A DNA stretch of 64,000 nucleotides, taken from positions 17,498,294 to 17,562,293 of the forward strand of contig CM026400.1 in NCBI GenBank assembly GCA_014843695.1. Direction: 5' to 3'. The number at the start of each line of letters is the position of its first letter. Position 1 is the stretch's first letter. This stretch comes from Archivesica marissinica (taxonomy: Eukaryota; Mollusca; Bivalvia; Venerida; Vesicomyidae). The notes beneath the pieces are model-generated. The model was not told the origin of the DNA, did no database searches, and saw only the letters and a list, made by a program, of their open reading frames with translations. Positions 4,672 to 63,487 of this stretch are shown here, one piece after another. The position numbers were made by a program, and so were the translations under genes.

Positions 4672-4917
4672 TTAACTCTTTGCACGCTAGCGGCAGATAA
4701 AATCACCTTTGCAAACAGCATAGAGCCAGATCAGATGGCACAGAACGTGCCATCTGATCAGGCTCTATGCTGTTTGCTATTCGGATAGTGGAGCTAAAAC
4801 ACTTGGCTGAATAGCAAACAACATGGATCCTGATCAGACGCGGCGTTACGCCGCGGCTGATCTGGATCTATGTTGTTTGCAAATGTGATTTTATTTACTC
4901 AGCAGGCAAAGGGTTAA
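4672..4917 (+). mobile_element. Family C TTAA element, twin hairpins
   Basis: Bounded by TTAACTCTTTGCACGCT and the inverted GGCAAAGGGTTAA. Contains two long hairpins. The first has arms AGAGCCAGATCAGATGGC and GCCATCTGATCAGGCTCT. The second has arms AGATCCTGATCAGACGC and GCGGCTGATCTGGATCT. Each stem is flanked by CAAACARCATAG and its inverse. The best-preserved member of family C here. TTAA ends suggest piggyBac-type mobilisation (inference). Confidence 0.9.
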
Positions 4918-4998
4918 TGTTGTGAAACTATAAATTTTGGGAAATACCTTTAACATTGGGAAAACATGCCAGAACGAACCAAAGAAACCACCAAGTGT

Positions 4999-5243
4999 TT
5001 AACCCATTCAACACCAAGTAACTGACATGGACTGGTCCATGATATTTTTGAGACCAATAAATGAATAAGAAAATTACATTTGGATCAGTTTATTTATCAA
5101 AATGGGTAATTTTTCCCCTAAAAATAGTAATATTACTTGCAAAAAGTGCAGATCCTGATGAGATGGCTCATCACGAGCTGGCTCATCTGGATCAACACTT
5201 TTTTGTAAGACGATTTAGAGGCCTGTAGTGTTGAAAGGGTTAA
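4999..5243 (-). mobile_element. Family A TTAA element
   Basis: Starts TTAACCCATTCAACACC and ends GTTGAAAGGGTTAA. The hairpin at about 5148-5205 has arms GATCCTGATGAGATGGCTC and GAGCTGGCTCATCTGGATC. Same orientation as the copy at 1814. Confidence 0.92.
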
Positions 5244-6094
5244 ATGAGTGTTTACTGGTATCTGGCCTCGAAGACTATGCACTATAATTATGAACATATG
5301 AAACTCTCTTCTTTTTTTTTCAAACCAAAAATGTGAATTGCATATCAGTATAACATGACAAATAAACAAAGAAGAAACATTCCTAACCCTTCCAACTCCT
5401 CAATTCCAATCAAGTTTTAGTTTTTAGCATTCAATCTAGTTTTAGTCGTTAAGAGCTTGTAGCAACAACGAAATTTTGCAAAGACGAAAGTTATCAAACA
5501 CTGCCCCAGGAGTGGGAATTTCTTCAAGACTTCATACATATAGCGATTGTGTTGGCAAGTTCGCTCTTCAAAATATATTTTCTGGCACAATACTGGTACA
5601 AACATTATCATGAAGAAATTCACACATTTTTAAACATTTCAAGGACATTGTGTGTATTACAAAACATTTGTCTGAGAATGCAAACTTCAGAACCTGGCTG
5701 ATTTTTCTCTTTTCAGATTCAGTTTCCTCAGCATCAGCTTCAAACTCGATATCCTCTTTCAAGGTTAACTGACCATTTCAGCCCTGATCTGTGTAGTCTC
5801 CTTCACAAGGTGGGGCGGGGCGCCCAGGGAGCGAAGGCAAGGTCCCTAGGACGATTATTTCGCCAAAGTCGCCCTCTAGAATGAGCCCTGCTAATAATAT
5901 ATCCACCGAGTGCCTATGGTGGCGACTACCTGCTTGGGCACTGGCAGTGCATCATTAGTCTTATTACAAATATGTTCTCTGGAAAAGTCTTGAATAAGCC
6001 GTTGGTTTCCAGTCCTACATTTGAATATGTTGTAAGTAAACTAAACAACATTTGCCTGCTCACTTCATTAATTAAAGCAGAAACTTTATTTAAT
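5244..6094. other. Unresolved intronic sequence
   Basis: No gene recognised. A GC-richer patch occurs at 5800-5900. Short open frames on the minus strand do not resemble the remainder of a discoidin domain. Confidence 0.45.
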
Positions 6095-6324
6095 TTAACC
6101 CTTTCCTTCATAGAGATTTCGGTTAATATACTTTTATATCTCCATACAAGCGACAGCCATTTAGCAATCATGCAGTGGATAAGTAGTCGCCATATCTATC
6201 CCATTTCCATAGATAATACTGGGACTACATGAGATTCTGGCCTTTATTATGAACATTGGTTTGGCTACTACATTGTCAATGTATTAGTAATGGCGCCAGG
6301 TGCTTCTATGAGGGAAAAGGTTAA
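6095..6324 (+). mobile_element. Family D TTAA element
   Basis: Starts TTAACCCTTTCCTTCATAGA and ends TCTATGAGGGAAAAGGTTAA, so the inverted ends are about 20 bp and sit in TTAA. No long central hairpin like A-C. Relatives are at 51775-52184 (inverted), 60570-60698, 33464-33512 and 63488-63535. Confidence 0.88.
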
Positions 6325-6403
6325 AAATGAACCAAACTATGCCAACTTATATTAATCACTACCGTTGATGCGAATGTGGTCATTCGTGTGATAAGAAAAC
6401 ATG

Positions 6404-6632
6404 ACTGTACATGTCATACTTTCAAGTCTCAGATTGCACCAAGCCTTGACTTGCAAAAGAAGACCTGGTCTTGGAGCACACAATTGATTATCCAAACTGT
6501 CCAAATCTCGAACAGATCAGCATACTCGGTCATTGTTGGGAGTGGAAACCTCGACTGTATATGTGATACTTTGAAACCTTGACTAGCAAAAGTCGTGGAG
6601 CACACAATTGACTATCCAAACTGTCCGACCCC
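6404..6632. repeat. Tandem duplication, about 150-bp spacing
   Basis: A block containing TTGGAGCACACAATTGATTATCC (read in two parts: TTGGAGCACACAATTG and ATTATCC) recurs in degraded form, with GTGGAGCACACAATTGACTA at about 6594. No coding signal. Confidence 0.6.
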
Positions 6633-6675
6633 ATACTGACCATTCTTATACAAATCAGTAAACATTTATACAGAC

Positions 6676-6765
6676 CTCTTCTCCACGTTTATTCCGGAAC
6701 CTCATCCATTCTCCACCATCTTCACGCTGATACTCCAGCAAGAATTCCTCAGTAAATTCTTGTCC
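6676..6765 (-). CDS. Ddr: DDR exon 3 (discoidin domain, middle)
   Basis: Thirty codons on the minus strand beginning GQEFTEEFLLEYQREDGG and ending RFRNKRGEE. The acceptor reads TATTTTCAG|GGA and the donor GAG|GTCTGT. The donor is weaker than that of exon 2, but the frame hits a stop six codons later (VCINVY then TGA), so an exon end here is required. The segment continues from exon 2 in phase 0, restoring the DDR-type stretch QGRFGNGQ-GQEF. In known DDRs this part forms core beta-strands of the extracellular collagen-binding discoidin domain. The next exon should start with the residues before the conserved GN; it was not found in 1-6675. Confidence 0.88.
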
Positions 6766-6954
6766 CTGAAAATATACAGAATACAATGTCACCCAAAATG
6801 ATATACATGTATCCTGCACTTATTCAATCCTCGCTATCTTCACACATATAGTCAAACAAAGATGTACAGCCTATAAACACATATCTTTAACTGTATTTTT
6901 ACAGATACCCAATTTATCAACCCTTTCCCCCTGATAGAGATATCGAGATATTCC

Positions 6955-9285
6955 AGGGCGGATCATAGAGGAAGACATGGGCAACTTGTAGAGAAAAGTC
7001 CAATCAACAGAGCCGGGGGCCAAGTGTACTGTACAGGGGGAAACTTGTAGAGAAAAGTCCATTCAACAGAGCCGGGGGCCAAGTGTACTGTGCAGGGGGA
7101 AACTTGTAGAGAAAAGTCCAATCAACAGAGCCGGGGGCCAAGTGTACTGTGCAGGCGGCAACTTGTAGGGAAAGTCCAAACACCATAGCCCGGAGGCCCA
7201 GTGGATGTCCAGGGGGCAACTTGTAAGGAACTGTCCAATCAACATAGACTGGAGGCCCAGTGGATGTCCAGGGGGCAACTTGTAAGGAACTGTCCAATCA
7301 ACATAGACTGGAGGACCAGTGGATGTAAAGGGGGCAACTTGTAAGGAACTGTCCAATCAACATAGACTGGAGGACCAGTGGATGTCCAGGGGGGCAACTT
7401 GTAAGGAACTGTCCAATCAACATAGACTGGAGGACCAGTGGATGTAAAGGGGGCAACTTGTAAGGAACTGTCCAATCAACATAGACTGGAGGCCCAGTGG
7501 ATGTCCAGGGGGCAACTTGTAAGGAACTGTCCAATCAACATAGACCGGAGGCCCAGTGGATGTCCAGGGGGCAACTTGTAAGGAACTGTCCAATCAGCAT
7601 AGACTGGAGGCCCAGTGGATGTCCAGGGGGCAACTTGTAAGGAACTGTCCAATCAACATAGACCGGAGGCCCAGTGGATGTCCAGGGGGTAACTTGTAAG
7701 GAACTGTCCAATCAGCATAGACTGGAGGCCCAGTGGATGTCCAGGGGCAACTTGTAAGGAACTGTCCAATCAACATAGACCGGAGGCCCAGTGGATGTCC
7801 AGGGGGTAACTTGTAAGGAACTGTCCAATCAGCATAGACTGGAGGCCCAGTGGATGTCCAGGGGGCAACTTGTAAGGAACTGTCCAATCAGCATAGACTG
7901 GAGGCCCAGTGGATGTCCAGGGGGCAACTTGTAAGGAACTGTCCAATCAACATAGATCGGAGGCCCAGTGGATGTCCAGGGGGTAACTTGTAAGGAACTG
8001 TCCAATCAGCATAGCCCGGAGGCCCAGTGGATGTCCAGGGGGCAACTTGTAAGGAACTGTCCAATCAGCATAGCCCGGAGGCCCAGTGGATGTCCAGGGG
8101 GCAACTTGTAAGGAACTGTCCAATCAGCATAGACCGGAGACCCAGTGGATGTCCAGGGGGCAACTTGTAAGGAACTGTCCAATCAGCATAGAACGGAGGC
8201 CCTGTGGATGTCCAGGGGGCAACTTGTAAGGAACTGTCCAATTAGCATAGACCGGAGGCCCTGTGGATGTCCAGGGGGCAACTTGTAAGGAACTGTCCAA
8301 TCAGCATATACCGAAGGCCCAGTGGATGTCCAGGGGGCAACTTGTGGTGTCCAATCGACATAGACCGGAGGCCCAGTGGATGTCCAGGGGGCAACTTGTA
8401 GGAATGTCCAATCAGCATAGACTGGAGGCCCAGTGGATGTCCAGGGGGCAACTTGTAAGGAACTGTCCAATCAACATAGACCGGAGGCCCAGTGGATGTC
8501 CAGGGGGTAACTTGTAAGGAACTGTCCAATCAGCATAGACTGGAGGCCCAGTGGATGTCCAGGGGGCAACTTGTAAGGAACTGTCCAATCAACATAGACC
8601 GGAGGCTCAGTGGATGTCCAGGGGGTAACTTGTAAGGAACTGTCCAATCAGCATAGACTGGAGGCCCAGTGGATGTCCAGGGGGCAACTTGTAAGGAACT
8701 GTCCAATCAACATAGACCGGAGGCCCAGTGGATGTCCTGGGGGCAACTTGTAAGGAACTGTCCAATCAACATAGATCGGAGGCCCAGTGGATGTCCAGGG
8801 GGTAACTTGTAAGGAACTGTCCAATCAGCATAGCCCGGAGGCCCAGTGGATGTCCAGGGGGCAACTTGTAAGGAACTGTCCAATCAGCATAGCCCGGAGG
8901 CCCAGTGGATGTCCAGGGGGCAACTTGTAAGGAACTGTCCAATCAGCATAGACCGGAGACCCAGTGGATGTCCAGGGGGCAACTTGTAAGGAACTGTCCA
9001 ATCAGCATAGACCGGAGGCCCTGTGGATGTCCAGGGGGCAACTTGTAAGGAACTGTCCAATTAGCATAGACCGGAGGCCCTGTGGATGTCCAGGGGGCAA
9101 CTTGTAAGGAACTGTCCAATCAGCATATACCGAAGGCCCAGTGGATGTCCAGGGGGCAACTTGTCCAATCGACATAGACCAGAGGCCCAGTGGATGTCCA
9201 GGGGGCAACTTGTCCAATCAGCATAGACTGGAGGCCCTGTGGATGTCCAGGGGGCAACTTGTCCAATCGACATAGCCATTTCAAT
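6955..9285. repeat. Minisatellite, 59-bp unit, about 39 copies
   Basis: Unit includes GGGGGCAACTTGTAAGGAAC, TGTCCAATCAACATAGAC and GGAGGCCCAGTGGATGTCC. The first four units are diverged (AGAGAAAAGTCC form). Single-base variants such as CATAGATCGG and CATATACCGAAGG recur in the same order about 819 bp apart (7950 versus 8770), showing a higher-order duplication. Units near 8340, 8400, 9165 and 9215 carry internal deletions. Open frames across it are repeat artefacts. Confidence 0.97.
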
Positions 9286-15453: not shown

Positions 15454-15746
15454 GTGTGTGTTTTACGTTTATTTATCGTCGCTACCGGTTACCCATATGA
15501 GCAACGTCTCCTGAAGAGATTAGTCATTTTAGATTTTGGAGGATAGTGCAATGATACAGACAGAGACCCATTCCAGAGTCTCCTCTGGTTCTTTTACGTG
15601 CACGGTGTAAAGCACCGACACGAGACCTCGGCTTAACGTCCCATCTGAAAGACTTAATTTTATTAGGGTCAAACGGGGGATCGAACCTGCGATCCCTGGA
15701 TTTCCAGTCCAGCGTGTTACCACTGGACTACAGATCCGTCTACTAA
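15454..15746 (-). mobile_element. SINE2 copy with target-site duplication
   Basis: A complete SINE2 in reverse, from TTTTACGTTTATTTATCGTC to the head TGGACTACAGATCCGTC. The 9-bp direct repeat TGGACTAGA lies on both sides (15445-15453 and 15747-15755). Confidence 0.88.
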
Positions 15747-15912: not shown

Positions 15913-16158
15913 TTAACCCTTTCAACCCCACAGGCCTCTAAATAGGCTTATGAAAAGTGTAGATCCAGATGAGCCGGCTCGTAACGAGACGTCTCATCAG
16001 GATCTGCACTTTTTTGCCAGTAATAATTATTACTATTTTTAGATAAAATTACCCATTTTGATAAATGAACTGGTCCAAAGGTAATTTTCTTATTAATTTA
16101 TTGGTCTAAAAATAGCATGCACCAGTCCATGTCAGTTACTTGGGGTTGAAAGAGTTAA
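15913..16158 (+). mobile_element. Family A TTAA element inside family E
   Basis: TTAACCCTTTCAACCCC to GTTGAAAGAGTTAA. Hairpin arms AGATCCAGATGAGCCGG and CGTCTCATCAGGATCT. The flanks GGCTGCTTAA and TTAATAGAGGTC rejoin to the uninterrupted family E order. Confidence 0.93.
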
Positions 16159-16229: not shown

Positions 16230-16460
16230 TTAACCCATTTCATTCTGGATACATTTAATGGTTTTTGCAAACAGCATAGATCCAGATCAACTGCAGCGTG
16301 ACGCTGCGTGCTGATCAGAATCTATGTTGTTTGCTACATAGCCAAGTGTCTTAGCAAACAGCATAGAGCCTGATCAGACAGCATGTTCCATTGTGGTTAA
16401 TCTGGCTCTATGTTCTTTGCAAATACTGTTTGAACGGTATCCAGAATCAAATAGGGTTAA
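16230..16460 (+). mobile_element. Family B TTAA element inside family E
   Basis: TTAACCCATTTCATTCTGG to CCAGAATCAAATAGGGTTAA. Two hairpins: arms AGATCCAGATCAA / CTGATCAGAATCT, then AGAGCCTGATCAG / AATCTGGCTCT. The flanks GTTGCTTAA and TTAATAGAGGT match the continuous family E copy at 51605 (reverse strand). Confidence 0.92.
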
Positions 16461-17904: not shown

Positions 17905-18160
17905 AGAATCACTTTTGCAAACAGCATAGAGCCAGATCAGACGGCACAGAACATGCCAGCATAGAGACAGATCAGACGGCACAGAACATGCCATTTTGAT
18001 CAGGCTCTATGCTGTTTGCAATTCGAATAGTGGAGCTAAAGTACTTGGCTGAATAGCAAACAACATAGATCCTGATCAGACGTGGCGTTATGCCGTGGCT
18101 GATCTGGATCTATGTTGTTTGCCAATGTGATTTTATTTATGTCAGCAGGTAACTGGTTAA
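17905..18160 (+). mobile_element. Family C element, left end lost, internal duplication
   Basis: Two hairpins as in the 4672 copy, the second with arms AGATCCTGATCAGACG and GGCTGATCTGGATCT. The first hairpin's 5' arm is duplicated (ATAGAGCCAGATCAGACGG and ATAGAGACAGATCAGACGG). Right end GTAACTGGTTAA; no left TTAA. Confidence 0.85.
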
Positions 18161-22309: not shown

Positions 22310-23250
22310 ACAGACTGGGCCCCCCCCCGGCAGGTGATAATCATTGAAAAGATGAGAAATAGATCAAATCCATCAGTCATTTTTCAAATGTTTTTAAGGC
22401 TGAAAGGAATGACAACGAAAACTTCTATGAATTTTCGTGGAATGAGGCAGAAATTGTTTCCAAGAATTATCGTACGAAATACATGGCTAAAAGATCTTTA
22501 AAAACAGACAAGCTAACGCACAGAATACTGCTTCATATCTTTTTAATATGCTCCAACGATGTCAAAACTGTCCGGAACTACTCCGGAATGATAGAACTGT
22601 GTATATACATTAATCATGAACATGAATGAAGTGGTGATATACATCAACACCCAGCCCCCATTAGGTGTAACATCCACAGTACATCATACCGCACCAGTGC
22701 AAAACAGCCCTCAACTCAATACCCAATCAGAAGCCAGTTACATCATTCTTGCTATTAGCCAATCAAACAGGGTCACTCTAAACAAATATCTCTCTCTATA
22801 TCTACAATCATACATATCAAAATAATCATAGGGATGATTCAAATCTTAGAAAAATAAATCCACAGATACATGAAACACACATCCAGATATTCTTATCTCA
22901 CATTGGAGCTCATTATAGGTTGGTTCATGATGTATTATTGAAAATGAAACTAATGAGGTCTCCCTCTTTTCGTTATGCAATTTATAATTGGCTAAGCTGG
23001 GTCTTAGGGAGAAGTCAGTAGATGTAGTTGGCTATCCGCTAATTAGGGGAATGTTTGATGTGTCAGCAAGGGTCTGGAACTAGTTGATTCTGACAATGAG
23101 TTCTTGGATAGTGAGTTCTTGGATTTCATGTTTGTTTACTGGACTTTCATCAATAAACTGGAACACAGATAAATGATTTTGGTTTCCACCAAGCCAGATG
23201 CATATTCTAAACTCTGGTGTTGTTGCAATCAGATTTAACTTTGGACTGAA
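22310..23250. other. Unresolved intronic sequence
   Basis: No gene recognised. A C run occurs at 22320-22328. A small duplication of GAGTTCTTGGAT lies at about 23098-23125. Confidence 0.5.
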
Positions 23251-23254
23251 GATT

Positions 23255-24690
23255 CACAGCCCTGTAAAATGAGGAAGATTCACAGCCCTGTAAAAGGAGG
23301 AAGATTCACAGCCCTGTAAAAGGAGGAAGATTCACAGCCCTGTAAAAGGAGGAAGATTCACAGCCCTGTAAAATGAGGAAGATTCACAGCCCTGTAAAAT
23401 GAGGAAGATTCACAGCCCTGTAAAATGAGGGAGATTCACAGCCCTGTAAAATGAGGAAGATTCAGCCATATAAAAGGAGGAAGATTCACAGCCCTGTAAA
23501 AGGAGGAAGATTCACAGCCCTGTAAAATGAGGAAGATTCACAGCCCTGTAAAAGGAGGAAGATTCACAGCCCTGTAAAAGGAGGAAGATTCACAGCCCTG
23601 TAAAAGGAGGAAGATTCACAGCCCTGTAAAATGAGGAAGATTCACAGCCCTGTAAAATGAGGAAGATTCACAGCCCTGTAAAATGAGGGAGATTCACAGC
23701 CCTGTAAAATGAGGAAGATTCAGCCATATAAAAGGAGGAAGATTCACAGCCCTGTAAAAGGAGGAAGATTCACAGCCCTGTAAAATGAGGAAGATTCACA
23801 GCCCTGTAAAAGGAGGAAGATTCACAGCCCTGTAAAAGGAGGAAGATTCACAGCCCTGTAAAAGGAGGAAGATTCACAGCCCTGTAAAATGAGGAAGATT
23901 CACAGCCCTGTAAAATGAAGAAGATTCACAGCCCTGTAAAATTAGGAAGATTCAGCCATATAAAAGGAGGGAGATTCACAGTCCTGTAAAAGGAAGAAGA
24001 TTCACAGCCATGTAAAATGAGGAAGATTCACAGCCCTGTAAAATGAGGAAGATTCAGCCATATAAAAGGAGGGAGATTCACAGTCCTGTAAAATGAGGAA
24101 GATTCACAGCCCTGTAAAAGGAGGAAGATTCACAGCCCTGTACAATGAGGAAGATTCACAGCCCTGTAAAAGGAGGAAGATTCACAGCCCTGTAAAAGGA
24201 GGAAGATTCACAGCCCTGTAAAATGAGGAAGATTCACAGCCCTGTAAAATGAGGAAGATTCAGCCATATAAAAGGAGGGATATTCACAGTCCTGTAAAAG
24301 GAGGGAGATTCACAGCCCTGTAAAATTAGGAAGATTCACAGCCCTGTAAAAGGAGGAAGATTCACAGCCATGTAAAAGGAGGAAGATTCACAGCCCTGTA
24401 AAAGGAGGAAGATTCACATCCCTGTAAAAGGAGGAAGATTCACAGCCCTGTAAAAGGAGGAAGATTCACAGCCCTGTAAAAGGAGGAAGATTCACAGCCC
24501 TGTAAAAGGAGGGAGATTCACAGCCCTGTAAAAGGAGTGAGATTCACATCCCTGTAAAAGGAGGGAGATTCACAGCCCTGTAAAATGAGGGCAATTCACA
24601 GCCCTGTAAAAGGAGGGAGATTCACAGCCCTGTAAAAGGAGGGAGATTCACAGCCCTGTAAAAGACGGAAGATTCACAGCCCTGTGGATA
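23255..24690. repeat. Minisatellite, 26-bp unit, about 55 copies
   Basis: Unit GAAGATTCACAGCCCTGTAA plus AAGGAG or AATGAG. A 23-24-bp variant with CAGCCATATAAAAGG marks positions near 23463, 23713, 23953, 24056 and 24262. The first two marks are 250 bp apart in matching context, so a roughly 250-bp block was duplicated. Confidence 0.97.
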
Positions 24691-25597: not shown

Positions 25598-26030
25598 TAC
25601 AGTCAAACTTAAGCAGCCAGCCAAGGGAGCCATAGAAAGTGGCTGCTTAGCACAGGTGGCTGCTTAACCCTTTCAACCCCACAGGCCTCTAAATAGGCTT
25701 ATGAAAAGTGTAGATCCAGATGAGCCGGCTCGTTTCCGTCTCATCAGGATCTGCACTTTTTTGCCAGTAATAATTATTACTATTTTTAGATAAAATTACC
25801 CATTTTGATAAATGAACTGGTCCAAATGTAATTTTCTTATTAATTTATTGGTCTAAATATAGCATGCACCAGTCCATGTCAGTTACTTGGGGTTGAATGG
25901 GTTAAGCAGCCAGTTTCCATATTCCCACTATGTTTTACTATACATTTGACCTCTATTAAGCAGCAACCTGTGCTAAGCAGCCACTTTCTGTGATTCCCTT
26001 GACTGGCTGCTTAAAACAGGTTTGACTGTA
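25598..26030 (+). mobile_element. Family E element carrying a family A insertion
   Basis: Both termini are present: TACAGTCAAACTTAAGCAG at left and CAGGTTTGACTGTA at right. Long inverted arms rich in AAGCAGCCACTTTCTGTG make the whole element foldback-like. Confidence 0.82.
25664..25905 (+). mobile_element. Family A TTAA element inside family E
   Basis: TTAACCCTTTCAACCCC to GTTGAATGGGTTAA. Hairpin arms AGATCCAGATGAGCCGG / CGTCTCATCAGGATCT with a shortened loop. Flanks GGCTGCTTAA and TTAAGCAGCC. Confidence 0.93.
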
Positions 26031-28473: not shown

Positions 28474-30499
28474 GGATATGCTAAATTGATGCCAACATCT
28501 CTACGAGGGGTGTAGGGTTAATCAAGTAGAACACCCATTATGCATTTTCTTGTAGCATGTTCCCAGTAGGGTTGTGCTCCTAGTAGGGCCCGTGTCCCAA
28601 GAAATGGCTAGTGCTCCTAGTAGGGCCCGTGTCCCATGAAATGGCTAGTGCTCCTAGTAGGGCCCGTGTCCCAAGAAATGGCTAGTGCTCCTAGTAGGGC
28701 CCGTGTCCCAAGAAATGGCTAGTGCTCCTAGTAGGGCCCGTGTCCCAAGAAATGGCTAGTGCTCGTAGTAGGGCCCGTGTCCCAAGAAATGGCTAGTGCT
28801 CCTAGTAGGGCCCGTGTCCCAAGAAATGGCTAGTGCTCCTAGTAGGGCCCGTGTCCCAAGAAATGGCTAGTGCTCCTAGTAGGGCCCGTGTCCCAAGAAA
28901 TGGCTAGTGCTCCTAGTAGGGCCCTGTGTCCCAAGAAATGGCTAGTGCTCCTAGTAGGGCCTGTGCTCCTAGTAGGGCTTGTGCTCCTAGTAGGGCCCGT
29001 GTCCCAAGAAATGGCTAGTGCTCCTAGTAGGGCCCGTGTCCCAAGAAATGGCTAGTGCTCCTAGTAGGGCCTGTGCTCCTAGTAGGGCTTGTGCTCCTAG
29101 TAGGGCCTGTGTCCCAAGAAATGGCTAGTGCTCCTAGTACGACGTGTGCTCCTAGTAGGACGTGTGCTCCTAGTAGGGCCTGTGCTCCTAGTAGGGCTTG
29201 TGCTCCTAGTAGGGCCTGTGTCCCAAGAAATGGCTAGTGCTCCTAGTAGGGCCCTGTGTCCCAAGAAATGGCTAGTGCTCCTAGTAGGACGTGTGTCCCA
29301 AGAAATGGCTAGTGCTCCTAGTAGGGCTTGTGCTCCAAGAAATGGCTAGTGCTCCTAGTAGGACGTGTGCTCATAGTAGGGCCCGTGTCCCAAGAAATGG
29401 CTAGTGCTCCTAGTAGGGCATGTGTCCCAAGAAATGGCTAGTGCTCCTAGTAGGACGTGTGCTCCTAGTTGGGCTTGTGCTCCTAGTAGGGCCCGTGTCC
29501 CAAGAAATGGCTAGTGCTCCTAGTAGGACGTGTGCTCCTAGTAGGGCTTGTGCTCCTAGTAGGACGTGTGCTCCTAGTAGGGCTTGTGCTCCTAGTAGGG
29601 CCCGTGTCCCAAGAAATGGCTAGTGCTCCTAGTAGGACGTGTGCTCCTAGTAGGACGTGTGCTCCTAGTAGGACGTGTGCTCCTAGTAGGGCTAGTGCTC
29701 CTAGTAGGGCCCTGTGTCCCAAGAAATGGCTAGTGCTCCTAGTAGGGCCCGTGTCCCAAGAAATGGCTAGTGCTCCTAGTAGGGCCCGTGTCCCAAGAAA
29801 TGGCTAGTGCTCCTAGTAGGACGTGTGTCCCAAGAAATGGCTAGTGCTCCTAGTACGTGTGTCCCAAGAAATGGCTAGTGCTCCTAGTATGACGTGTGTC
29901 CCAAGAAATGGCTAGTGCTCCTAGTAGGATGTGTGTCCCAAGAAATGGCTAGTGCTCCTAGTAGGGCCCTGTGTCCCAAGAAATGGCTAGTGCTCCTAGT
30001 AGGACGTGTGTCCCAAGAAATGGCTAGTGCTCCTAGTAGGGCCCGTGTCCCAAGAAATGGCTAGTGCTCCTAGTAGGACGTGTGTCCCAAGAAATGGCTA
30101 GTGCTCCTAGTAGGACGTGTGTCCCAAGAAATGGCTAGTGCTCCTAGTAGGGCCCTGTGTCCCAAGAAATGGCTAGTGCTCCTAGTAGGGCTTGTGTCCC
30201 AAGAAATGGCTAGTGCTCCTAGTAGGGCCCTGTGTCCCAAGAAATGGCGAGTGCTCCTAGTAGGGCCCTGTGTCCCAAGAAATGGCTAGTGCTCCTAGTA
30301 GGGCCCTGTGTCCCAAGAAATGGCTAGTGCTCCTAGTAGGGCCTGTGTCCCATAAAATGCTTGTGCCCCAAGAACGACCAGTGTTCCAAGAAGGGTGTGT
30401 GCCATATTGGATATGCTAAATGGATGCCTGCCGACATCTCTACGAGGGGTGTAGGGTTAATCAAGTAGAGCACCTATTATGCATTTTCTTGTAGCATGC
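28474..30499. repeat. Minisatellite of 37-bp and 18-bp units, with duplicated flanks
   Basis: Main unit GCTCCTAGTAGGGCCCGTGT plus CCCAAGAAATGGCTAGT, interspersed with 18-bp short units GCTCCTAGTAGGACGTGT. About 50 long units. A block of about 85 bp (ATCTCTACGAGGGGTGTAGG to TTTTCTTGTAGCATG) sits on both sides, at 28474-28561 and 30411-30499. Confidence 0.95.
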
Positions 30500-36383: not shown

Positions 36384-38545
36384 TGGTCAGAGGGGGCACC
36401 TGTAGTGGTCAGGGGGGACATCTGTAGTGGTCAGATAGGGCATCTATAGTGGTCAGAGGGGGCACCTGTAGTGGTCAGATAGGGCATCTGTAGTGGTCAG
36501 AGGGGGTATCTGTAGTGGTCAGAGGGGGCATCTGTAGTGGTCAGAGGGCACACTCATAGTGGTCAGAGGGGGCACCTGTAGTGGTCAGATAGGGCATCTG
36601 TAGTGGTCAGAGGGGGCATCTGTAGTGGTCAGAGGGCACACTCGTAGTGGTCAGAGACCTGTAGTGGTCAGGGGGGGCATCTGTAGTGGTCAGGGGGGGG
36701 CATCTGTAGTGGTCAGGGGGGGCATCTGTAGTGGTCAGGGGGCACGTGTAGTGGTCAGAGGGGGCATCTGTAGTGGTCAGAGGGGGCATCTGTAGTGGTC
36801 AGAGGGGGCACGTGTAGTGGTCAGAGGGGGCACCTGTAGTGGTCAGGGGGGGCACCTGTAGTGGTCAGGGGGCACCTGTAGTGGTCAGGGGGGCACCTGT
36901 AGTGGTCAGGGGGGCACCTGTAGTGGTCAGGGGGGCACCTGTAGTGGTCAGGGGGGACACATGTAGTGGACAGAGGGGGCATCTGTAGTGGTCAGGGGGC
37001 ATCTGTAGTGGTCAGGGGGGCACCTGTAGTGGTCAGGGGCATCTGTAGTGGTCAGAGGGGGCACCTGTAGTGGTCAGGGGGGACATCTGTAGTGGTCAGA
37101 GGGGGCATCTGTAGTTGTCAGAGGGGGCATCTGTAGTGGTCAGGGGGGCATCTGTAGTGGTCAGGGGGGCACCTGTAGTGGTCAGAGGGGGCATGTGTAG
37201 TGGTCAGAGGGGGCATCTGTAGTGGTCAGAGGGGGCACCTGTAGTGGTCAGGGGGCACCTGTAGTGGTCAGGGGGCACCTGTAGTGGTCAGGGGGCACCT
37301 GTAGTGGACAGAGGGGGCATCTGTAGTGGTCAGGGGGCATCTGTAGTGGTCAGGGGAGGCACCTGTAGTGGTCAGGGGGCATCTGTAGTGGTCAGGGGGG
37401 CATCTGTAGTGGTCAGAGGGGGCACCTGTAGTGGTCAGGGGGGACATCTGTAGTGGTCAGGGGGGGCATCTGTAGTGGTCAGGGGGGGCATCTGTAGTGG
37501 TCAGAGGGGGCATCTGTAGTGATCAGGGGGGACATCTGTAGTGGTCAGAGGGGCATCTGTAGTGGTCAGGGGGCACCTGTAGTGGTCAGAGGGGGCACCT
37601 GTAGTGGTCAGGGGGGCATCTGTTGTGGTCAGGGGGCATCTGTAGTGGTCAGGGAGACACCTGTAGTGGTCAGGGGGGCATCTGTAGTGGTCAGGGGGCA
37701 CCTGTAGTGGTCAGGGGGGGCACCTGTAGTGGTCAGGGGGGCACCTGTAGTGGTCAGGGGGGCATCTGTAGTGGTCAGGGGAGGCACCTGTAGTGGTCAG
37801 GGGGCATCTGTAGTGGTCAGGGGGGCACCTGTAGTGGTCAGGGGGCACCTGTAGTGGTCAGGGGGGCATCTGTAGTGGTCAGGGGGGCATCTGTAGTGGT
37901 CAGGGGGCATCTGTAGTGGTCAGGGGGCATCTGTAGTGGTCAGGGGGCACCTGTAGTGGTCAGGGGGGCATCTGTAGTGGTCAGGGGGGGCATCTGTAGT
38001 GGTCAGGGGGCATCTGTAGTGGTCAGAGGGGGGACCTGTAGTGGTCAGGGGGGACATCTGTAGTGGTCAGGGGGCGGGGCATCTGTAGTGGTCAGGGGGG
38101 GCATCTGTAGTGGTCAGAGGGGGCATCTGTAGTGGTCAGGGGGGACATATGTAGTGGTCAGAGGGGGCATCTGTAGTGGTCAGGGGGGCATCTGTAGTGG
38201 TCAGAGGGGGCACCTGTAGTGGTCAGGGGGGGCACCTGTAGTGGTCAGGGGGGCACCTGTAGTGGTCAGAGGGGGCACCTGTAGTGGTCAGAGGGGGCAC
38301 CTGTAGTGGTCAGGGGGCACCTGTAGTGGTCAGAGGGGGGGAATCTGTAGTGGTCAGGGGGGACACCTGTAGTGGTCAGATAGGGCACCTGTAGTGGTCA
38401 GAGGGGGCATCTGTAGTGGTCAGAGGGGGCACCTGTAGTGGTCAGAGGGGGCATCTGTAGTGGTCAGGGGGGACACCTGTAGTGGTCAGATAGGGCACCT
38501 GTAGTGGTCAGAGGGGGCACGTGTAGTGGTCAGAGGGGGCAGTGG
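36384..38545. repeat. G-rich minisatellite, 20-21-bp unit, about 105 copies
   Basis: Unit TGTAGTGGTCAGGGGGCACC with G runs of four to eight and ACC/ATC variants. Nearly every unit has a plus-strand G run of at least four, so quadruplex potential is dense over 2.1 kb. It starts inside a SINE1 copy and ends about 25 bp before a SINE2 copy. Confidence 0.97.
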
Positions 38546-38910: not shown

Positions 38911-39158
38911 TTAACCCATTTCATTCTGGATATATTTAAAGGCTTTTGCAAACAACATAGATCCAGATCAGCTGCAGCGTCGACGCTGCGTGCTGATCAG
39001 GATCTATGTTGTTTGCTACATAGCCAAGTGTCTTAGCAAGATCATCTGAATAGCATGCAGCATAGAGCCTGATAAGATGGCATGTTCCATGGCGGCTGAT
39101 CTAGCTCTATGTTCTTTGCAAATACTATTTGAACGGTATCCAGAATCAAATGGGTTAA
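38911..39158 (+). mobile_element. Family B TTAA element
   Basis: TTAACCCATTTCATTCTGG to CCAGAATCAAATGGGTTAA. First hairpin AGATCCAGATCAGCTGCAG / GTGCTGATCAGGATCT. Second hairpin AGAGCCTGATAAGATGG / GGCTGATCTAGCTCT. Best-preserved family B copy. Confidence 0.93.
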
Positions 39159-40835: not shown

Positions 40836-41269
40836 CTTGGGCCCCTGACTGATTGCACCCCCCCTCCCCCTCCCCCTTCCCCCTCCCACCATTATGTTAT
40901 AGTATGCTTACTACTCGTATTGATGGTGAATTAGATCAGTCCTCATTGATTTTACTCGGCTGACAATACAGATCAATTTACTATTGTCTCTGTGTCATTT
41001 CTGTATTTATTTATTATCACAGAACAAAGATGGAATACCAGGGCATTGTCCTTGTAGTCATGGACTTCACACACATGGGAACCATACAGTAAGACTGTAT
41101 CAATATTTACATGTGGGGCAAGAAGGGGGTGGTTGCTTTGGTTGAGCCTTTATTAATTATTGATTCATTGGTACGAAAGATCTACTTGGTAGAGTTTGTG
41201 TATTGACCTGTCCCTCATTTAAGATGGAATATCAGGGTATTGTACTTGTAAATGTAATGGCACAATTAC

Positions 41270-42775
41270 TGTTACCTTTTGATTATTCTGCAGAATTACT
41301 GCTACCATTTGAATATCCTTAATATTCTGCTGAATTACTGTTACCTTTTGAATATCATTAATATTCTGCAGTATGACCATTACCTTTTGAATATCCTTAA
41401 CATTCTGCAGAATTACTGTTACCTTTTGAATATCCTTAACATTCTGCAGTATTACTGTTACCACCTTTTGAATATCCTTAATATTCTGCAGAATTACTCT
41501 TACCTTTTGAATATCCCTAATATTCTGCAGTATTACTGTTACCTTTTGAATATCCTTAATATTCTGCAGAATTACTGTTACCTTTTGAATATCCTTAATA
41601 TTCTGCAGAATTACTGTTACCTTTTGAATATCCTTAATATTCTGCAGTATTACTCTTACCTTTTGAATATCCTTAATATTCTGCAGTATTACTGTTACCT
41701 TTTGAATATCCTTAATATTTTGCAGAATTACTGTTACCTTTTGAATATCCTTAATATTCTGCAGAATTACTCTTACCTTTTGAATATCCTTAATATTCTG
41801 CAGTATTACTGTTACCTTTTGAATATCCTTAATATTTTGCAGAATTACTGTTACCTTTTGAATATCCTTAATATTCTGCAGAATTACTGTTACCTTTTGA
41901 ATATCCTTAATATTCTGCAGAATTACTGTTACCTTTTGAATATCCTTAATATTCTGCAGAATTATTGTTACCTTTTGAATATCCTTAATATTCTGCAGTA
42001 TTACTGTTACCTTTTGAATATCCTTAATATTCTGCAGTATTACTGTTACCTTTTGAATATCCTTAATATTTTGCAGAATTACTGTTACCTTTTGAATATC
42101 CTTAATATTCTGCAGTATTACTGTTACCTTTTGAATATCCTTAATATTCTGCAGTATTACTGTTACCACCTTTTGAATATCCTTAATATTCTGCAGAATT
42201 ACTGTTACCTTTTGAATATCCTTAACATTCTGCAGTATTACTGTTACCACCTTTTGAATATCCTTAATATTCTGCAGAATTACTCTTACCTTTTGAATAT
42301 CCTTAATATTCTGCAGTATTACTGTTACCTTTTGAATATCCCTAATATTCTGCAGTATTACTTTTCCCTATTTGAATATCCTTAATATTTTGCAGAATTA
42401 CTGTTACCTTTTGAATATCCTTAATATTCTGCAGAATTACTGTTACCTTTTGAATATCCTTAATATTTTGCAGAATTACTGTTACCCTTTGAATATTCTT
42501 AATATTTTGCAGAATTACTGTTACCTTTTGAATATTCTTAATATTTTGCAGAATTACTCTTACCTTTTGAATATCCTTAATATTCTGCAGAATTATTGTT
42601 ACCTTTTGAATATCCTTAATATTCTGCAGAATTACTGTTACCTTTTGAATATCCTTAATATTCTGCAGAATTACTGTTACCTTTTGAATATCCTTAATAT
42701 TCTGCAGAATTACTGTTACCGTTTGAATATTCTGCAGAATTACTGTTCCCTTTTGAATATTCTGCAGAATTACAT
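41270..42775. repeat. Minisatellite, 39-bp unit, about 38 copies
   Basis: Unit TTAATATTCTGCAGAATTAC plus TGTTACCTTTTGAATATCC, very homogeneous. Both strands have long open frames (343 residues minus; 368 and 163 plus) because 39 is divisible by three and the unit lacks stops in those frames. Isoleucine/leucine/tyrosine-only content argues against protein coding. Confidence 0.97.
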
Positions 42776-45807: not shown

Positions 45808-46030
45808 TTAACCCATTTCATTCTGGATACCATTCAAACAGTATTTGCAAAGAACATAGAGCCAGATCAGCAGCCGTCTGATCAGGCTCTATGCTGTTTG
45901 CTATTCAGATGATCTTGCTGAGACACTTGGCTATGTAGCAAACAACATAGATCCTGATCAGCACGCAGCGTCATCTGGATCTATGTTGTTTGCAAAATCC
46001 TTTAAATGTATCCAGAATGAAATGGGTTAA
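45808..46030 (-). mobile_element. Family B TTAA element, reverse
   Basis: TTAACCCATTTCATTCTGG at both ends in inverted orientation (right end CCAGAATGAAATGGGTTAA). Hairpins AGAGCCAGATCAG / CTGATCAGGCTCT and AGATCCTGATCAG / CATCTGGATCT, each with a shortened loop. Confidence 0.92.
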
Positions 46031-46801: not shown

Positions 46802-47089
46802 GTGTGTGTTTTACGTTTATTTATGGTCGCTACCGGTTGCCCATATGAGCGATGCCTCCTGAAGATATTAGTTATTTTAGATTTTGGAGGATAGTGCATG
46901 ATACAGACAGAGACCCATTCCAGAATCTCCTCTGGTTCTTTTACGTGCAAGGTGTAAAGCACCGACACGAGACCTCGGTTTAACGTCCCATCTGAAAGAC
47001 TTAATTTTATTAGGGTCAGACGGGGGATTGAACCTGTGATCCGTGGATTACAAGTCCAGCGTGTTACCACTGGACTACATATCCGTCTG
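46802..47089 (-). mobile_element. SINE2 copy with 13-bp target duplication
   Basis: Complete reverse SINE2. TTAGTCTTGTATC occurs directly on both sides (46789-46801 and 47090-47102), setting the element ends to the base. Confidence 0.93.
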
Positions 47090-47731: not shown

Positions 47732-47857
47732 ATTTAAAGGCTTTTGCAAACAACATAGATCCAGATCAGTCACAGCGTGAGGCTGCATGCTGATCTGGAT
47801 CTATGTTGTTTGCTACATAGCCAAGTGTCTTAGCAAGATCATCTGAATAGCAAATAG
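47732..47857 (+). mobile_element. Family B fragment
   Basis: The GATC hairpin only (AGATCCAGATCAGTCAC / GCATGCTGATCTGGATCT), fully paired at the usual mismatch position. Both TTAA ends are missing. Confidence 0.8.
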
Positions 47858-49859: not shown

Positions 49860-50100
49860 TTAACCCATTCAATACCAAGTAACTCACATGGACTGGTCCA
49901 TGTTATTCATAAACCAATAAATGAATCAAAAAATCACATTTGGACAAGTTCATTTATCAAAATGGGTAATTATGTCTAAAAATAGTCATATCATTGGCAA
50001 AAAGTGCAGATCCTGATGAGACGGCTCGTCACGAGCCGGCTCATCTGGATCTACACTTTTTGTAAGCCTATTTAGAGGTCTGTGGTGTTGAAAGGGTTAA
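49860..50100 (-). mobile_element. Family A TTAA element
   Basis: TTAACCCATTCAATACC to GTTGAAAGGGTTAA. Hairpin arms AGATCCTGATGAGACGGC and GCCGGCTCATCTGGATCT. Confidence 0.93.
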
Positions 50101-51119: not shown

Positions 51120-51222
51120 TCGGATTCAACCAAACTGTTTATTAGGATCAGATGGGGGATCGAACCTGTGATCCCTGGATTACCAGTCCAGCGTGTTAAC
51201 CACTGGACTACACATCCATTGT
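51120..51222 (-). mobile_element. SINE2 head fragment
   Basis: GGATCAGATGGGGGATCGAAC, in parts GGATCAGATGGGG and GATCGAAC, then CTGGATTACCAGTCCAGCG and CACTGGACTACACATCC: only the tRNA-Thr-like head and first body bases. Confidence 0.85.
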
Positions 51223-51774: not shown

Positions 51775-52184
51775 TTAACCCTGTCCCTCATAGAAGCACC
51801 TCTTGACGCCATTACCAATACGACATACATTGACAATGTAGTAGCCAAACCAATGCTCATAAACCCTTTCCCTCATAGAAGCATCTCTTGATGCCATTAC
51901 CAATACGACATACATTGACAATGTAGTAGCCAAACCAATGCTCATAAACCCTTTCCCTCATAGAAGCATCTCTTGATGCCATTACCAATACGACATACAT
52001 TGACAATGTAGTAGCCAAACCAATGCTCATAATAAATGCCAGAATCGCATGTAATCCCAGTATAATCTAAGGAGGTGGGATAAATATTGCAACTACTTAT
52101 CCACTGCATGATAGCTAAATGGCTGTCGTTTATATGGAAATATAATAGTATATTGATCTAAATCTATATGAAGGAAAGTGTTAA
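51775..52184 (-). mobile_element. Family D element with internal triplication
   Basis: TTAACCCTGTCCCTCATAG at left and TATGAAGGAAAGTGTTAA at right. An 85-bp segment starting AACCCTGTCCCTCATAGAAG and ending GCCAAACCAATGCTCAT is repeated three times (51777-52030), which multiplies one terminus. Confidence 0.88.
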
Positions 52185-57522: not shown

Positions 57523-57763
57523 TTAACCCATTCAACACCACAGGCCTCTAAATAGGCTTACAAAAAGTGTAGATACAGATGAGCCGGCTCATCATGAGCC
57601 TTCTCATCAGGATCTGCACTTTTGCCAGTAATATTACTATTTTTAGACAAAAATTACCCATTTTGATAAATGAACTGGTCCAAATGTAATTTTCTTATTA
57701 ATTTATTGGTCTAAAATTATCATGCACAAGTCCATGTCAGGTACTTGGGGTTGAATGGGTTAA
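57523..57763 (+). mobile_element. Family A TTAA element
   Basis: TTAACCCATTCAACACC to GTTGAATGGGTTAA. Hairpin AGATACAGATGAGCCGGC / CTTCTCATCAGGATCT. Confidence 0.93.
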
Positions 57764-58039: not shown

Positions 58040-59998
58040 AAATTTACCCCCTTATCTGCCAGACACCCAATCCACATGGATTATTCCCCCTTATCTGCCA
58101 GACACACACTCCACATGGATTATTTCCCCTTATCTGCCAGACACCCAATCCACATGAATTAGTTCCCCCTTATCTGCCAGACACACACTCCACATGGATT
58201 ATTTCCCCTTATCTGCCAGACACACACTCCACATGGATTATTTCCCCTTATCTGCCAGACACACTCCACATGAATTAGTTCCCCCTTATCTGCCAGACAC
58301 ACACTCCACATGGATTATTTCCCCTTATCTGCCAGACACACACTCCACATGGATTATTTCCCCCTATCTGCCAGACACACACTCCACATGGATTATTTCC
58401 CCCTATCTGCCAGACACACACTCCACATGGATTATTTCCCCTTATCTGCCAGACACACACTCCACATGGATTATTTCCCCTTATCTGCCAGACACCCACT
58501 CCACATGGATTATTTCCCCTTATCTGCCAGACACACTCCACATGGATTATTTCCCCTTATCTGCCAGACACCCACTCCACATGGATTATTTCCCCTTATC
58601 TGCCAGACACACTCCACATGGATTATTTCCCCTTATCTGCCAGACACACTCCACATGGATTATTTCCCCTTATCTGCCTGACACACTCCACATGAATTAT
58701 TTCCCCTTATCTGCAAGACACCCACTCCACATGGATTACTTCCCCCTATCTGCCACACACCCACACCACATGGATTATTTCCCCTTATCTGCCAGACACA
58801 CACACTCCACATGGATTATTTCCCTCTATCTGCCATACACCCAATCCACATGGATTATTTCCCCTTATCTGCCAGACACACACTCCACATGGATTATTTC
58901 CCCTTATCTGCCAGACACCCAATCCACATGAATTAGTTCCCCCTTATCTGCCAGACACACACTCCACATGGATTATTTCCCCCTATCTGCCAGACACCCA
59001 CTCCACATGGATTATTTCCCCCTATCTGCCAGACACACACTCCACATGGATTATTTCCCCTTATCTGCCAGACACACTCCACATGAATTATTTCACCTTA
59101 TCTGCCAGACACACTCCACATGAATTAGTTCCCCCTTATCTGCCAGACACACACTCCACATGGATTATTTCCCCTTATCTGCCAGACACACACTCCACAT
59201 GGATTATTTCCCCCTATCTGCCAGACACCCACTCCACATGGATTATTTCCCCTTATCTGCCAGACACACACTCCACATGGATTATTTCCCCTTATCTGCC
59301 AGACACCCACTCCACATGGATTATTTCCCCTTATCTGCCAGACACACTCCACATGGATTATTTCCCCTTATCTGCCAGACACACTCCACATGGATTATTT
59401 CCCCTTATCTGCCTGACACACTCCACATGAATTATTTCTCCTTATCTGCAAGACACCCACTCCACATGGATTACTTCCCCCTATCTGCCACACACCCACA
59501 CCACATGGATTATTTCCCCTTATCTGCCAGACACACACACTCCACATGGATTATTTCCCTCTATCTGCCATACACACTCCACATGGATTATTTCCCCTTA
59601 TCTGCCAGACACACACTCCACATGGATTATTTCCCCTTATCTGCCAGACACCCAATCCACATGAATTAGTTCCCCCTTATCTGCCAGACACACACTCCAC
59701 ATGGATTATTTCCCCCTATCTGCCAGACACCCACTCCACATGGATTATTTCCCCCTATCTGCCAGACACACACTCCACATGGATTATTTCCCCTTATCTG
59801 CCAGACACACTCCACATGAATTATTTCACCTTATCTGCAAGACACCCACTCCACATGGATTACTTCCCCCTATCTGCCACACACCCACACCACATGGATT
59901 ATTTCCCCTTATCTGCCAGACACCCAATCCACATGGATTATTTCCCCCTATCTGCCAGACACCCACTCCACATGGATTATTTCCCCCTATCTGCCAGG
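58040..59998. repeat. Minisatellite, 39-bp (36-bp) unit, about 52 copies
   Basis: Unit CACATGGATTATTTCCCCTT plus ATCTGCCAGACACACACTC; ACACACTC and ACACTC forms give 39 and 36 bp. A run of unusual variants (CTGCAAGACACCC, GATTACTTCCCCC, CACACCCACACC) recurs in the same order at about 58712, 59442 and 59837, showing block duplication of about 730 and 400 bp. Long open frames are artefacts. Confidence 0.97.
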
Positions 59999-60328: not shown

Positions 60329-60569
60329 TTAACCCTTTCAACACCACAGACCTCTAAATAGGCTTACAAAAAGTGTAGATCCAGATGAGCCGGCTCGTGA
60401 CGAGCCGTCTCATCAGGATCTGCACTTTTTGCCAGTGATATGACTATTTTTAGACATAATTACCCATTTTGATAAATGAACTTGTCCAAATGTGATTTTT
60501 TGATTCATTTATTGGTTTATGAATAACATGGACCAGTCCATGTGAGTTACTTGGTGTTGAATGGATTAA
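60329..60569 (+). mobile_element. Family A TTAA element
   Basis: TTAACCCTTTCAACACC to GTTGAATGGATTAA. Hairpin AGATCCAGATGAGCCGGC / GCCGTCTCATCAGGATCT. Directly joined at right to a family D part. Confidence 0.92.
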
Positions 60570-60698
60570 TAGATATGGCGACTACTTATCCACTGCATGA
60601 TAGCTAAATGGCTGTCGTTTATATGGAGATATAATAGTATATATTTATATGGAGATATAATAGTATATTAACCTAAATCTCCATGATGGAAAGGGTTA
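60570..60698 (-). mobile_element. Family D fragment
   Basis: GATATGGCGACTACTTATCC, GCTAAATGGCTGTCG and CCATGATGGAAAGGGTTA; an internal piece (TATATGGAGATATAATAGT) is doubled. Confidence 0.8.
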
Positions 60699-61080: not shown

Positions 61081-61083
61081 CCC

Positions 61084-61165: not shown

Positions 61166-61222
61166 GGTTCGTTTAGTTGGAATTCTTTATTCTTATTGTT
61201 GCTAGGGCCCCACTATCCGAAT

Positions 61223-61301
61223 AGCAAACAGCATAGAGCCTGATCAGCCGGCATATTCTGTGCCATGACATCTGATCTGGCTCTAGCTATGCTGTTTGCA
61301 A
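61223..61301 (-). mobile_element. Family B/C hairpin fragment
   Basis: A single GAGC hairpin (AGAGCCTGATCAGCCGGC / GACATCTGATCTGGCTCT) framed by AGCAAACAGCATAG and TATGCTGTTTGC, without TTAA ends. Confidence 0.8.
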
Positions 61302-61379
61302 AGGCAACTAAAAGCAACTTCAGTACTGTTGCGATTAGCATTTTACGAGTTATTTCAACAGCACATACAGACAGTTAGT

Positions 61380-61612: not shown

Positions 61613-61669
61613 GTTGGTCCGAATTCTGCCTGTGCAGTATTACTGTTTCTTAATGAGAGACATCTCTAA

Positions 61670-62250
61670 TTTTCTATTACCTCCCTTGGCAGATAAAGTC
61701 TTATTTATCCAAAAATGTAAATAGGTCCTTTTAGTTGAAATCCTTTGTTGTTACTGTTTTTACTGTTCCCTAACCAGATGTTGCGGTATGATAAACGTTA
61801 TTTTACCAAAATCGTGTTAATTAACTGATAACATTGTTTTACAAATAAGTACCCATTGCATATACTGTATGAGATCTGTCGAGATATAGTAATTTAATAA
61901 TCATAAGAAGCGATAGTGGAAGTCGTGATAGCGCAGTGGATGCGCGTTCGCTTCAGGTGAGAAAGGTCCGTAATTCGAGCTCTGCTCTTACATTTGTGCC
62001 CTTTGGCAAGCCATTTAAATTCCACGTTGCCTCTTTTCTCTCCCTCGTGGCGCTGGATTCCATCAGGAATGAGGTCTCGAGAGTGATTAATATAAGTTGT
62101 AAGAACTTGTTTCGCAATCGAGCTAAAATAAATTTGTATAAACTAAGCGATAGTGGAATAAAATTGCTAGCATATTGTGCAAAGGAAACAACGATAAAAA
62201 CAGAGGAAAACATTTAATAGGACCTATCTACTTTTATAGAGTATTCAGGG
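61670..62250 (+). repeat. Dispersed repeat H, copy 2, hosting a SINE1
   Basis: Same order of segments as 28045-28400 (CCTCCCTTGGCAGATAAAGT, GGTCCTTTTAGTTGAAATCC, then AACGATAAAAACAGAGGAA), interrupted by SINE1 at 61921-62144. Element class unknown. Confidence 0.75.
61921..62144 (+). mobile_element. SINE1 reference copy with 13-bp target duplication
   Basis: AAGCGATAGTGGA stands on both sides (61908-61920 and 62145-62157), so the element is 224 bp from AGTCGTGATAGCGCAGTGG to AATTTGTATAAACT. Head: A box TAGCGCAGTGG, anticodon-like stem TTCGC with loop TTCAGGT, and B-box-like sequence. Body TTTAAATTCCACGTTGCC, tail TTCGCAATCGAGC. Confidence 0.94.
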
Positions 62251-62259
62251 GCTCTCATT

Positions 62260-62890
62260 CACATGCAATAATGCCAGTTCCGGTTGATATATAGGCCTGA
62301 CAAGGAGTGAGCATTGCTTCAACTGCGCTTCTACTGCGCAGGATTAAAATGAATAAACCACCGCACTGCAGTCTGCTTTCAAGGTTGTCGATATCGCTAT
62401 CTTACGATATTCTACACTGTTAGGGTATTAGTTGGAATTTAGAATTTGTTTTAAGATACGATTTACATTGTGTAGCACAGACCAGGAAAATTCATCTGGA
62501 GCTAGTTTCCTTCAGACTGGCGTCAATAATTGACGGGCTGAAATACCACCGGCATATTGGGTGTTTTCGATGAAACTCGGTAAATTGGTTCAATGCGGTC
62601 ACATTTGGTACATCGTAGTGAAATCTCGTGTAAGGTAGCAAATTCAATTCATATGATACTTCAATGCAATATCCTGTTTTTTCACTAATAACAACTCTTC
62701 AGCTGGGCGTATGATAAAGGGATTGGTTTGTCATGCAAGTGCAAATCTGTTACTTAATCCATAAGAGTAATTCAGGCTCTTGCACCCAAATGACATGCTA
62801 CAGTGACATTGGCAAATTGGTCCCCGCTAATCTATAGATACATAAAAATTCTTTCTCCATATAGATATTAACACAAATTTAGTTGTTTTT
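62260..62890. other. Unique GC-richer block; possible regulatory or noncoding exon
   Basis: Less repetitive and more CpG-rich than its surroundings, with a GCGCAGTAGAAGCGCAG-type inverted motif (minus strand, about 62325-62341). No open frame of note. It could be a distal promoter or 5' noncoding exon of the DDR gene; this is speculation. Confidence 0.25.
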
Positions 62891-62892
62891 TA

Positions 62893-63098
62893 TAACGTTT
62901 ATTTATCGTCGCTACCGGCTGCCCATATTGAGGGAAGCCTCCTGAAGAGATTAGTCAATTTAGATTATTGGAGGATAGTACAGCAGAGACCCATTCCAGT
63001 GTCTCCTCTGGTTCTTTTACGTGCACGGTGTAAAGCACTGACACAAGACATCGGTTTAAAGTCCCATTGAATGACTTAATTTTATTAGGGTCAGATAT
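62893..63098 (-). mobile_element. SINE2, head-truncated
   Basis: ATAACGTTTATTTATCGTCG, CTCCTGAAGAGATTAGTC, GTGTCTCCTCTGGTTC to TTTTATTAGGGTCAGAT, then no head. Confidence 0.85.
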
Positions 63099-63164
63099 GT
63101 TACAGCGACATTGGCAAATTGGTCCATACTTAAATTCTTTTTCCGTACTGATGTTAACACAAAT

Positions 63165-63322
63165 TTAGTATCTTAGTTCGTACAAAATACATTTTAGCTT
63201 GACTGCGTAACAAGTGATTTCAACATAACACTTTTAAATCACTCTCGATACCTCACTTCTGATGGATTCAATCTCCTAGAGGATCAAAAGAGAGACAGGG
63301 GGGGGGGGGGGGCAATGTGGAT
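63165..63322 (-). mobile_element. SINE1 copy split by a family A element
   Basis: GTACAAAATACATTTTAGC, CTCTCGATACCTCACTTC and GGCAATGTGGA, cut exactly where SINE1 consensus has TTTAAATG. A G run of 14 is at 63299-63312. Confidence 0.8.
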
Positions 63323-63487
63323 TTAACCCATTCAATACAAAGTAACTGACATGGACTGGTGCATGATAAAATGACCAATAAATTAATCAGTAAATTACAT
63401 TTGGACCAGTTCATTTATCAAAATGGGTAATTTTGTCTGAAAGAGTTATATTATTGGCAAAAAGTGCAGATCCTGATGAGATCTCAT
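63323..63487 (-). mobile_element. Family A element, right half missing
   Basis: TTAACCCATTCAATACAAAG through the first hairpin arm (AGATCCTGATGAG), then joined to TCTCATTTAG and a family D piece (CCCAGTAATATCTATGG, to about 63535). Confidence 0.85.

Follow-up and report, generated by a model that had tools for sequence, protein, structure and literature searches.

Three families of short, TTAA-bounded elements (A, B and C) in a single window of Archivesica marissinica DNA (64,000 nucleotides of contig CM026400.1, to which all copy counts given here refer) carry related hairpins, in which one fixed position of the stem, column 18 of the arm, holds a like-on-like mismatch in 20 of the 23 hairpins that can be scored there. 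A founder hairpin with unlike arms, followed by ordinary decay and occasional copying from arm to arm, probably accounts for these counts, and this explanation is favoured because homologous hairpins share the same arm-specific state and three of the hairpin classes share a second mismatch as well. Here, we describe the hairpins and the elements that carry them, weigh the founder against selection for the mismatch, and then turn to the most similar known transposons.

On its two strands, the window has 41 occurrences of the motif AGAKCCWGAT, compared with 0.57 expected from shuffles. Full arms of 23–24 nucleotides (nt) were scanned, and every hairpin was laid out from outer to inner arm with its arm columns numbered. 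The outer arm is the one nearer the TTAA end of the element and the inner arm is the other, an assignment made by homology in the partial copies at 17850, 33485, 47680 and 61150. Scan and layout give a total of 25 hairpins, of which families A and C have nine each and family B has seven. Families A and B have a common core composed of a hairpin with AGAGCC arms (H1), a spacer and a hairpin with AGATCC arms (H2) in mirror orientation, and family C has a single hairpin close to one end, which is all that it shares with A and B. The copies are as follows, with the bases at column 18 given as outer/inner:

4672–4917, forward strand: family A element, TTAA to TTAA; H1 4711–4777 and H2 4814–4880, both A/T at column 18.
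17917–18122, forward strand: family A core, with an indistinct left end; H1 17917–18019, with a 35-nt tandem duplication inside the stem, and H2 18056–18122, both A/T.
32024–32253, reverse strand: family A element; H2 32060–32126, A/A at column 18 and C/C at column 25; H1 32163–32229, C/T.
33525–33680, forward strand: family A core; H1 33525–33591, A/T; H2 33628–33680, outer arm deleted from column 17.
61224–61299, reverse strand: single A-type H1 hairpin, A/T; outer arm with a 4-nt insertion.
16230–16460, forward strand: family B element; H2 16267–16334 and H1 16354–16420, both A/T.
38911–39158, forward strand: family B element; H2 38948–39016 and H1 39053–39119, both A/T.
45808–46030, reverse strand: family B element; H1 45847–45901 and H2 45938–45993, with shortened tips, both A/T.
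47746–47813, forward strand: single B-type H2 hairpin, A/A (paired) at column 18.
1814–2055, reverse strand: family C element sitting in a 62-bp minisatellite; hairpin 1952–2018, A/T.
4999–5243, reverse strand: family C element; hairpin 5139–5205, A/T.
15913–16158, forward strand: family C element with an empty counterpart at 25931–26010; hairpin 15950–16016, A/T.
25664–25905, forward strand: family C element; hairpin 25701–25763, A/T.
25931–26010, reverse strand: empty-site counterpart of the 15913 insertion, with one TTAA; 95% identity over 80 bp.
31452–31678, forward strand: family C element; hairpin 31489–31540, tip deleted, A/T.
49860–50100, reverse strand: family C element; hairpin 49997–50063, A/T.
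57523–57763, forward strand: family C element; hairpin 57560–57626, A/T.
60329–60569, forward strand: family C element; hairpin 60366–60432, A/T.
63323–63486, reverse strand: truncated family C copy; inner arm 63457–63480 with T, outer arm lost.

Column 18 cannot be scored in two hairpins with a deleted or lost outer arm (33628–33680 and the copy with the inner arm 63457–63480). Among the other 23, 20 have outer A and inner T, so that A faces A when one strand is folded and T faces T when the other is; two have A in both arms, which gives a pair (32060–32126 and 47746–47813), both having lost the mismatch by a change of the inner T to A, and one is C/T (32163–32229). The original prediction had described such a mismatch, at a fixed position in about 20 of 23 hairpins of three TTAA families, and had named three exceptions; the count and all three exceptions are reproduced. 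One of these, 32067–32112, had been called fully paired; columns 18 and 25 do pair in it, but small mismatches are found elsewhere in 32060–32126. The mismatch had also been thought to be A/A or T/T depending on orientation. The mismatch is real, but its state is set by the arm: each of the five class consensuses has CC-A-GAT in its outer arm and CC-T-GAT in its inner arm, and the two orientations are therefore a single rule. The consensuses are built on few copies (five for A-H1, four for A-H2, three for B-H1, four for B-H2 and nine for C).

The hairpins are real units, because their covariation score is 0.307, whereas sliding the partner by one to three columns gives no more than 0.071. This score was obtained with those 14 hairpins that measure exactly 67 nt (12 of them distinct), the other 11 of the 25 having other lengths or a lost arm. 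In this set, 83.6% of the cells are paired; of the 12 rows, 11 lack pairing at column 18 and 8 lack it at column 25. Three of the five shuffle measures exceed every shuffle and the other two are unremarkable: two-sided changes occur in 13 of 31 pairs, a number reached by 28 of 500 shuffles, and 21 further pair types compare with a shuffled mean of 23.6, so neither of these two measures favours the structure. Folded as single-stranded DNA, one element per family gives z-scores of −17.8, −11.5 and −10.2. Foldback of the whole core, in which column 18 would pair (outer with outer and inner with inner), was rejected as the main structure, as two local hairpins are more stable in six of seven cores; the exception is the core of the B element at 45808 (−38.6 versus −40.2 kcal/mol), and in the core of B 16230 the two forms differ little in stability, a foldback form being the best fold when no constraint is set.

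The stem has about 31 pairs and a short loop, and the column 18 mismatch splits it into runs of about 17 and 13 pairs. The mismatch could accordingly have been kept as a break that makes a long palindrome tolerable in replication, and published work deals with the instability of long inverted repeats. However, two copies paired at column 18 persist, one of them with over 20 pairs in an unbroken row, and any mismatch anywhere would do, so that a fixed column with fixed bases is left unexplained; we consider this role very improbable. The same long stem and short loop would also suit hairpins that are transcribed and processed to small RNAs, with the mismatch as a processing bulge, and folding within long non-coding RNAs has been described for the zebrafish Angel elements (PMC3636048). 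Rfam at gathering thresholds matched five tRNAs only in the window, which leaves room for a novel RNA, and small-RNA processing would seem to us very improbable too.

Independent decay from a perfect stem cannot explain the shared mismatch, as had been argued originally, since the probability of at least 20 in 23 is about 2e-29 when the measured deviation rate is used. For a founder that was already mismatched, decay at the measured rate gives an expectation of 21.3 in 23 (standard deviation 1.3), and 20 or fewer would be seen with P = 0.24. The original prediction had offered either a founder stem or a selected bulge, and had proposed comparing the conservation of the mismatch column with that of its flanks. 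No excess is found within the window: column 18 deviates from the class consensus at 3 of 48 arm sites (6.3%), compared with 3.8% at the other 24 columns, and 16 of the 25 columns (column 18 and 15 more) are constant in both arms throughout the five class consensuses. Arm-specific states common to homologous hairpins favour the founder, and for selection there is no excess conservation. As the classes share ancestry and one window was examined, this test is weak against selection, and selection for the mismatch is possible in active copies. Mismatched columns show eight single-arm changes in 59 cells, four of them restoring pairing, which is too few to judge an excess of repair. Compensation after insertion is a weak reading as well, both arms deviating in 2 of 45 changed cells, at column 2 of two related C copies and with different bases.

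A second kept mismatch lies seven columns further in, at column 25 (outer C, inner A), and is present in the consensuses of A-H2, B-H1 and C; the arms are unlike at this column in 15 of 23 hairpins. The consensus arms of family C are also unlike at columns 1 and 11, and those of B-H1 at columns 6 and 8. In the hairpin at 32060–32126, the inner arm has changed from T to A at column 18 and from A to C at column 25, so that both now have the outer-arm state, and independent changes would yield about 0.002 such double-repaired copies among some 13 hairpins. Because the two columns changed together, a single copying tract across the stem would be the simplest account, and arm-to-arm copying by template switching in inverted repeats has been described (PMC8604942, PMC8794818). 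In the other paired copy, 47746–47813, column 18 has changed and there is no copying tract.

A founder mismatch in a hairpin shared by TTAA-type miniature inverted-repeat transposable elements (MITEs) is an ordinary mechanism. In the proposed history, the founder would have been one imperfect palindrome that already had A in its outer and T in its inner arm at column 18, and probably also C and A, respectively, at column 25. An inverted duplication of one hairpin probably produced the A/B core, in which two mirrored hairpins have their outer arms toward the TTAA ends, and the mismatch would thereby be mirrored too. Copies would then have spread by TTAA insertion, a step that empty sites show for two family C copies and that we infer for the rest. 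In active lineages, pairing may have been renewed by two-arm changes, brought about either by selection for paired stems or by short template switches from one arm to the other, and arm copying would have erased the mismatch in at least one copy, 32060–32126, as its pattern of changes suggests. The remaining copies would keep the mismatch by descent, and the counts would need no function.

Several points weigh against this history. No intermediate of the presumed inverted duplication is seen in the window. Columns 6, 8, 9, 10, 15 and 22 have changed in both arms between classes, and column 18 is unpaired in every class consensus. Two-sided turnover elsewhere with column 18 kept would be the best remaining argument for selection, and is suggestive only, because the classes share ancestry. 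Any arm copying behind these six columns should sometimes erase column 18, and column 15 is three bases away. In family C (eight complete copies), 2 of 62 arm columns are informative compared with 20 of 174 in the rest of the element (p = 0.073), a low arm variation that hints at constraint on the hairpin and is again only suggestive. If the mismatch is selected, the arms could be two different transposase half-sites, with A/T telling which of them faces the element end, and copies without A/T would transpose poorly. This would fit the retention of outer A and inner T in all five class consensuses despite two-arm changes at six other columns, an A–B core that is better conserved than most of the ends, and the contact that the piggyBac and piggyBat transposases make with an imperfect palindrome beside the end (PMC11707139). 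Against it, column 18 shows no more conservation than the columns around it, with deviations at 3 of 48 arm sites, and the palindromes described in PMC11707139 measure 12–19 bp, versus stems of about 31 pairs here; overall, we regard half-sites as unlikely. That outer A and inner T form a selected polarity mark, kept as the remaining stem covaries and the ends are exchanged, with every arm as a putative transposase contact and a shared hairpin cassette mobilised with different ends, we would call distinctly unlikely.

Spans from TTAA to TTAA were found in 13 of the 18 copies examined, and these 13 complete copies are 223–248 bp in length. Between families A and B, identity is 0.77–0.91 in the core (12 cross pairs), 0.62–0.79 at the right ends and 0.63–0.90 at the left ends, where some values cover as few as 10 aligned bases. 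The eight complete copies of family C are 0.89–0.99 identical to one another. When flanks were joined and matched in the window, an empty site with a single TTAA was found for 2 of the 12 insertions tested, both of family C; for the copy at 1814–2055, uninterrupted units of the host 62-bp minisatellite represent the empty site. The test of element 16230 was weak, its right end having been set one base short. Many element ends start with CCCT and others with CCCA or CTCT. The terminal motif of the terminal inverted repeats (TIRs) given for piggyBac-type MITEs is CC[C/T]T, and AmiPB4, a known piggyBac-like element, begins with CCCATT, so that a CCCA start has precedent (PMC2872659); the CTCT starts depart from the motif. 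Inverted termini of about 12–19 bp can be seen by eye, good in B and C and imperfect in A. No transposase domain was found in the 28 open reading frames (ORFs) of the window scanned with Pfam, a subset of the ORFs listed. Judged by their sequence, the elements are probably short, non-autonomous TTAA/piggyBac-type MITEs, and they fit the piggyBac type better than Kolobok. Kolobok elements likewise have TTAA target duplications, but their ends are 5'-RR...YY-3' rather than 5'-CC or 5'-CT as found here (PMC9587614), and membership of Kolobok was rejected because the element ends do not match this rule. A putative autonomous partner would be a transposase gene between CCCTTTCAAC- or CCCATTTCATT-like ends.

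A fourth TTAA-bounded element, with CCCTTTCCTTCATAG ends and without the hairpin motif, is located at 6095–6324. By eye, an 85-bp tandem array at 51777–52032 resembles its repeated right end, a fragment of it (60566–60670) adjoins the C element at 60329, and the left end of the element is similar to that of the A copy at 33485 (33470–33520). Another TTAA start without the hairpin motif is present at 32934 (TTAACTCTTTGCATGC).

The closest precedents, by analogy, appear to be the coral CMITEs and the zebrafish Angel elements. The CMITEs of Acropora are, as here, small TTAA piggyBac-type MITE families that are conserved inside and differ in their TIRs (PMC2872659). An interior better conserved between families than the ends is found for A versus B, and C shares the hairpin only. 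CMITEs are set apart by their description as elements of about 100 bp with a 75-base internal region, compared with 223–248 bp here and two hairpins in A and B (PMC2872659), and the mirrored hairpins and kept mismatch found here are not among the features that the available part of PMC2872659 describes for CMITEs. Angel elements are described, like those here, as DNA elements present in many copies, whose long inverted repeats fold into stem-loops and have changed on both sides of the stem (PMC3636048). An imperfect palindrome with pairing kept by two-sided changes is found here too (13 of 31 pairs; score 0.307), a likeness in working only, and in Angel the two-sided changes are unique to single copies whereas here they separate classes (PMC3636048). 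The piggyBac and piggyBat transposons also have imperfect palindromes near the transposon end, but these are short transposase contact sites, in contrast to the long hairpins described here (PMC11707139).

Pattern scans of viral and prokaryote collections found no relatives with both arms in viral contigs or in bacterial and archaeal genomes. Among the 58 viral-contig loci matching one pattern, none had the second arm at up to five mismatches; the second arm was absent, by eye, from single matches to two other viral-contig patterns; and the bacterial and archaeal scans and one further viral-contig scan gave no match. A literature search for 'conserved mismatch' in MITEs did not find the phrase, which is weak evidence of absence as subscription journals lay mostly outside the search, and a search with six arm sequences returned no related paper, judged by title.

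The window as a whole (1–64000) has a very high minisatellite load, with 78 rows in the repeat listing (for example 6979–9262, 23248–24685, 28574–30392, 36380–38541 and 58048–59997), and one family C element is embedded in a minisatellite array. Five tRNA-like Rfam matches (3288–3361, 15665–15737, 31820–31892, 47012–47084 and 51144–51217), two of which ARAGORN calls tRNA-Thr and tRNA-Ser, may be genes or tRNA-derived repeats. A reverse-strand ORF at 41219–42250 within a 39-bp tandem array matches Pfam RelA_SpoT (E = 9.2e-09), which is probably a repeat artefact, because the ORF lies in a tandem array and no single stretch passes alone.

TTAA MITE families with a common mirrored-hairpin core and differing ends are thus described, and they provide a clear case of a kept mismatch that seems selected, yet whose counts are explained by a founder and decay. 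With one copy in which two mismatches were repaired together, they also offer a natural system for following arm-to-arm copying in DNA palindromes. Finally, if it is true that column 18 resists turnover across many subfamilies, these hairpins would provide a test of how transposases read subterminal palindromes.

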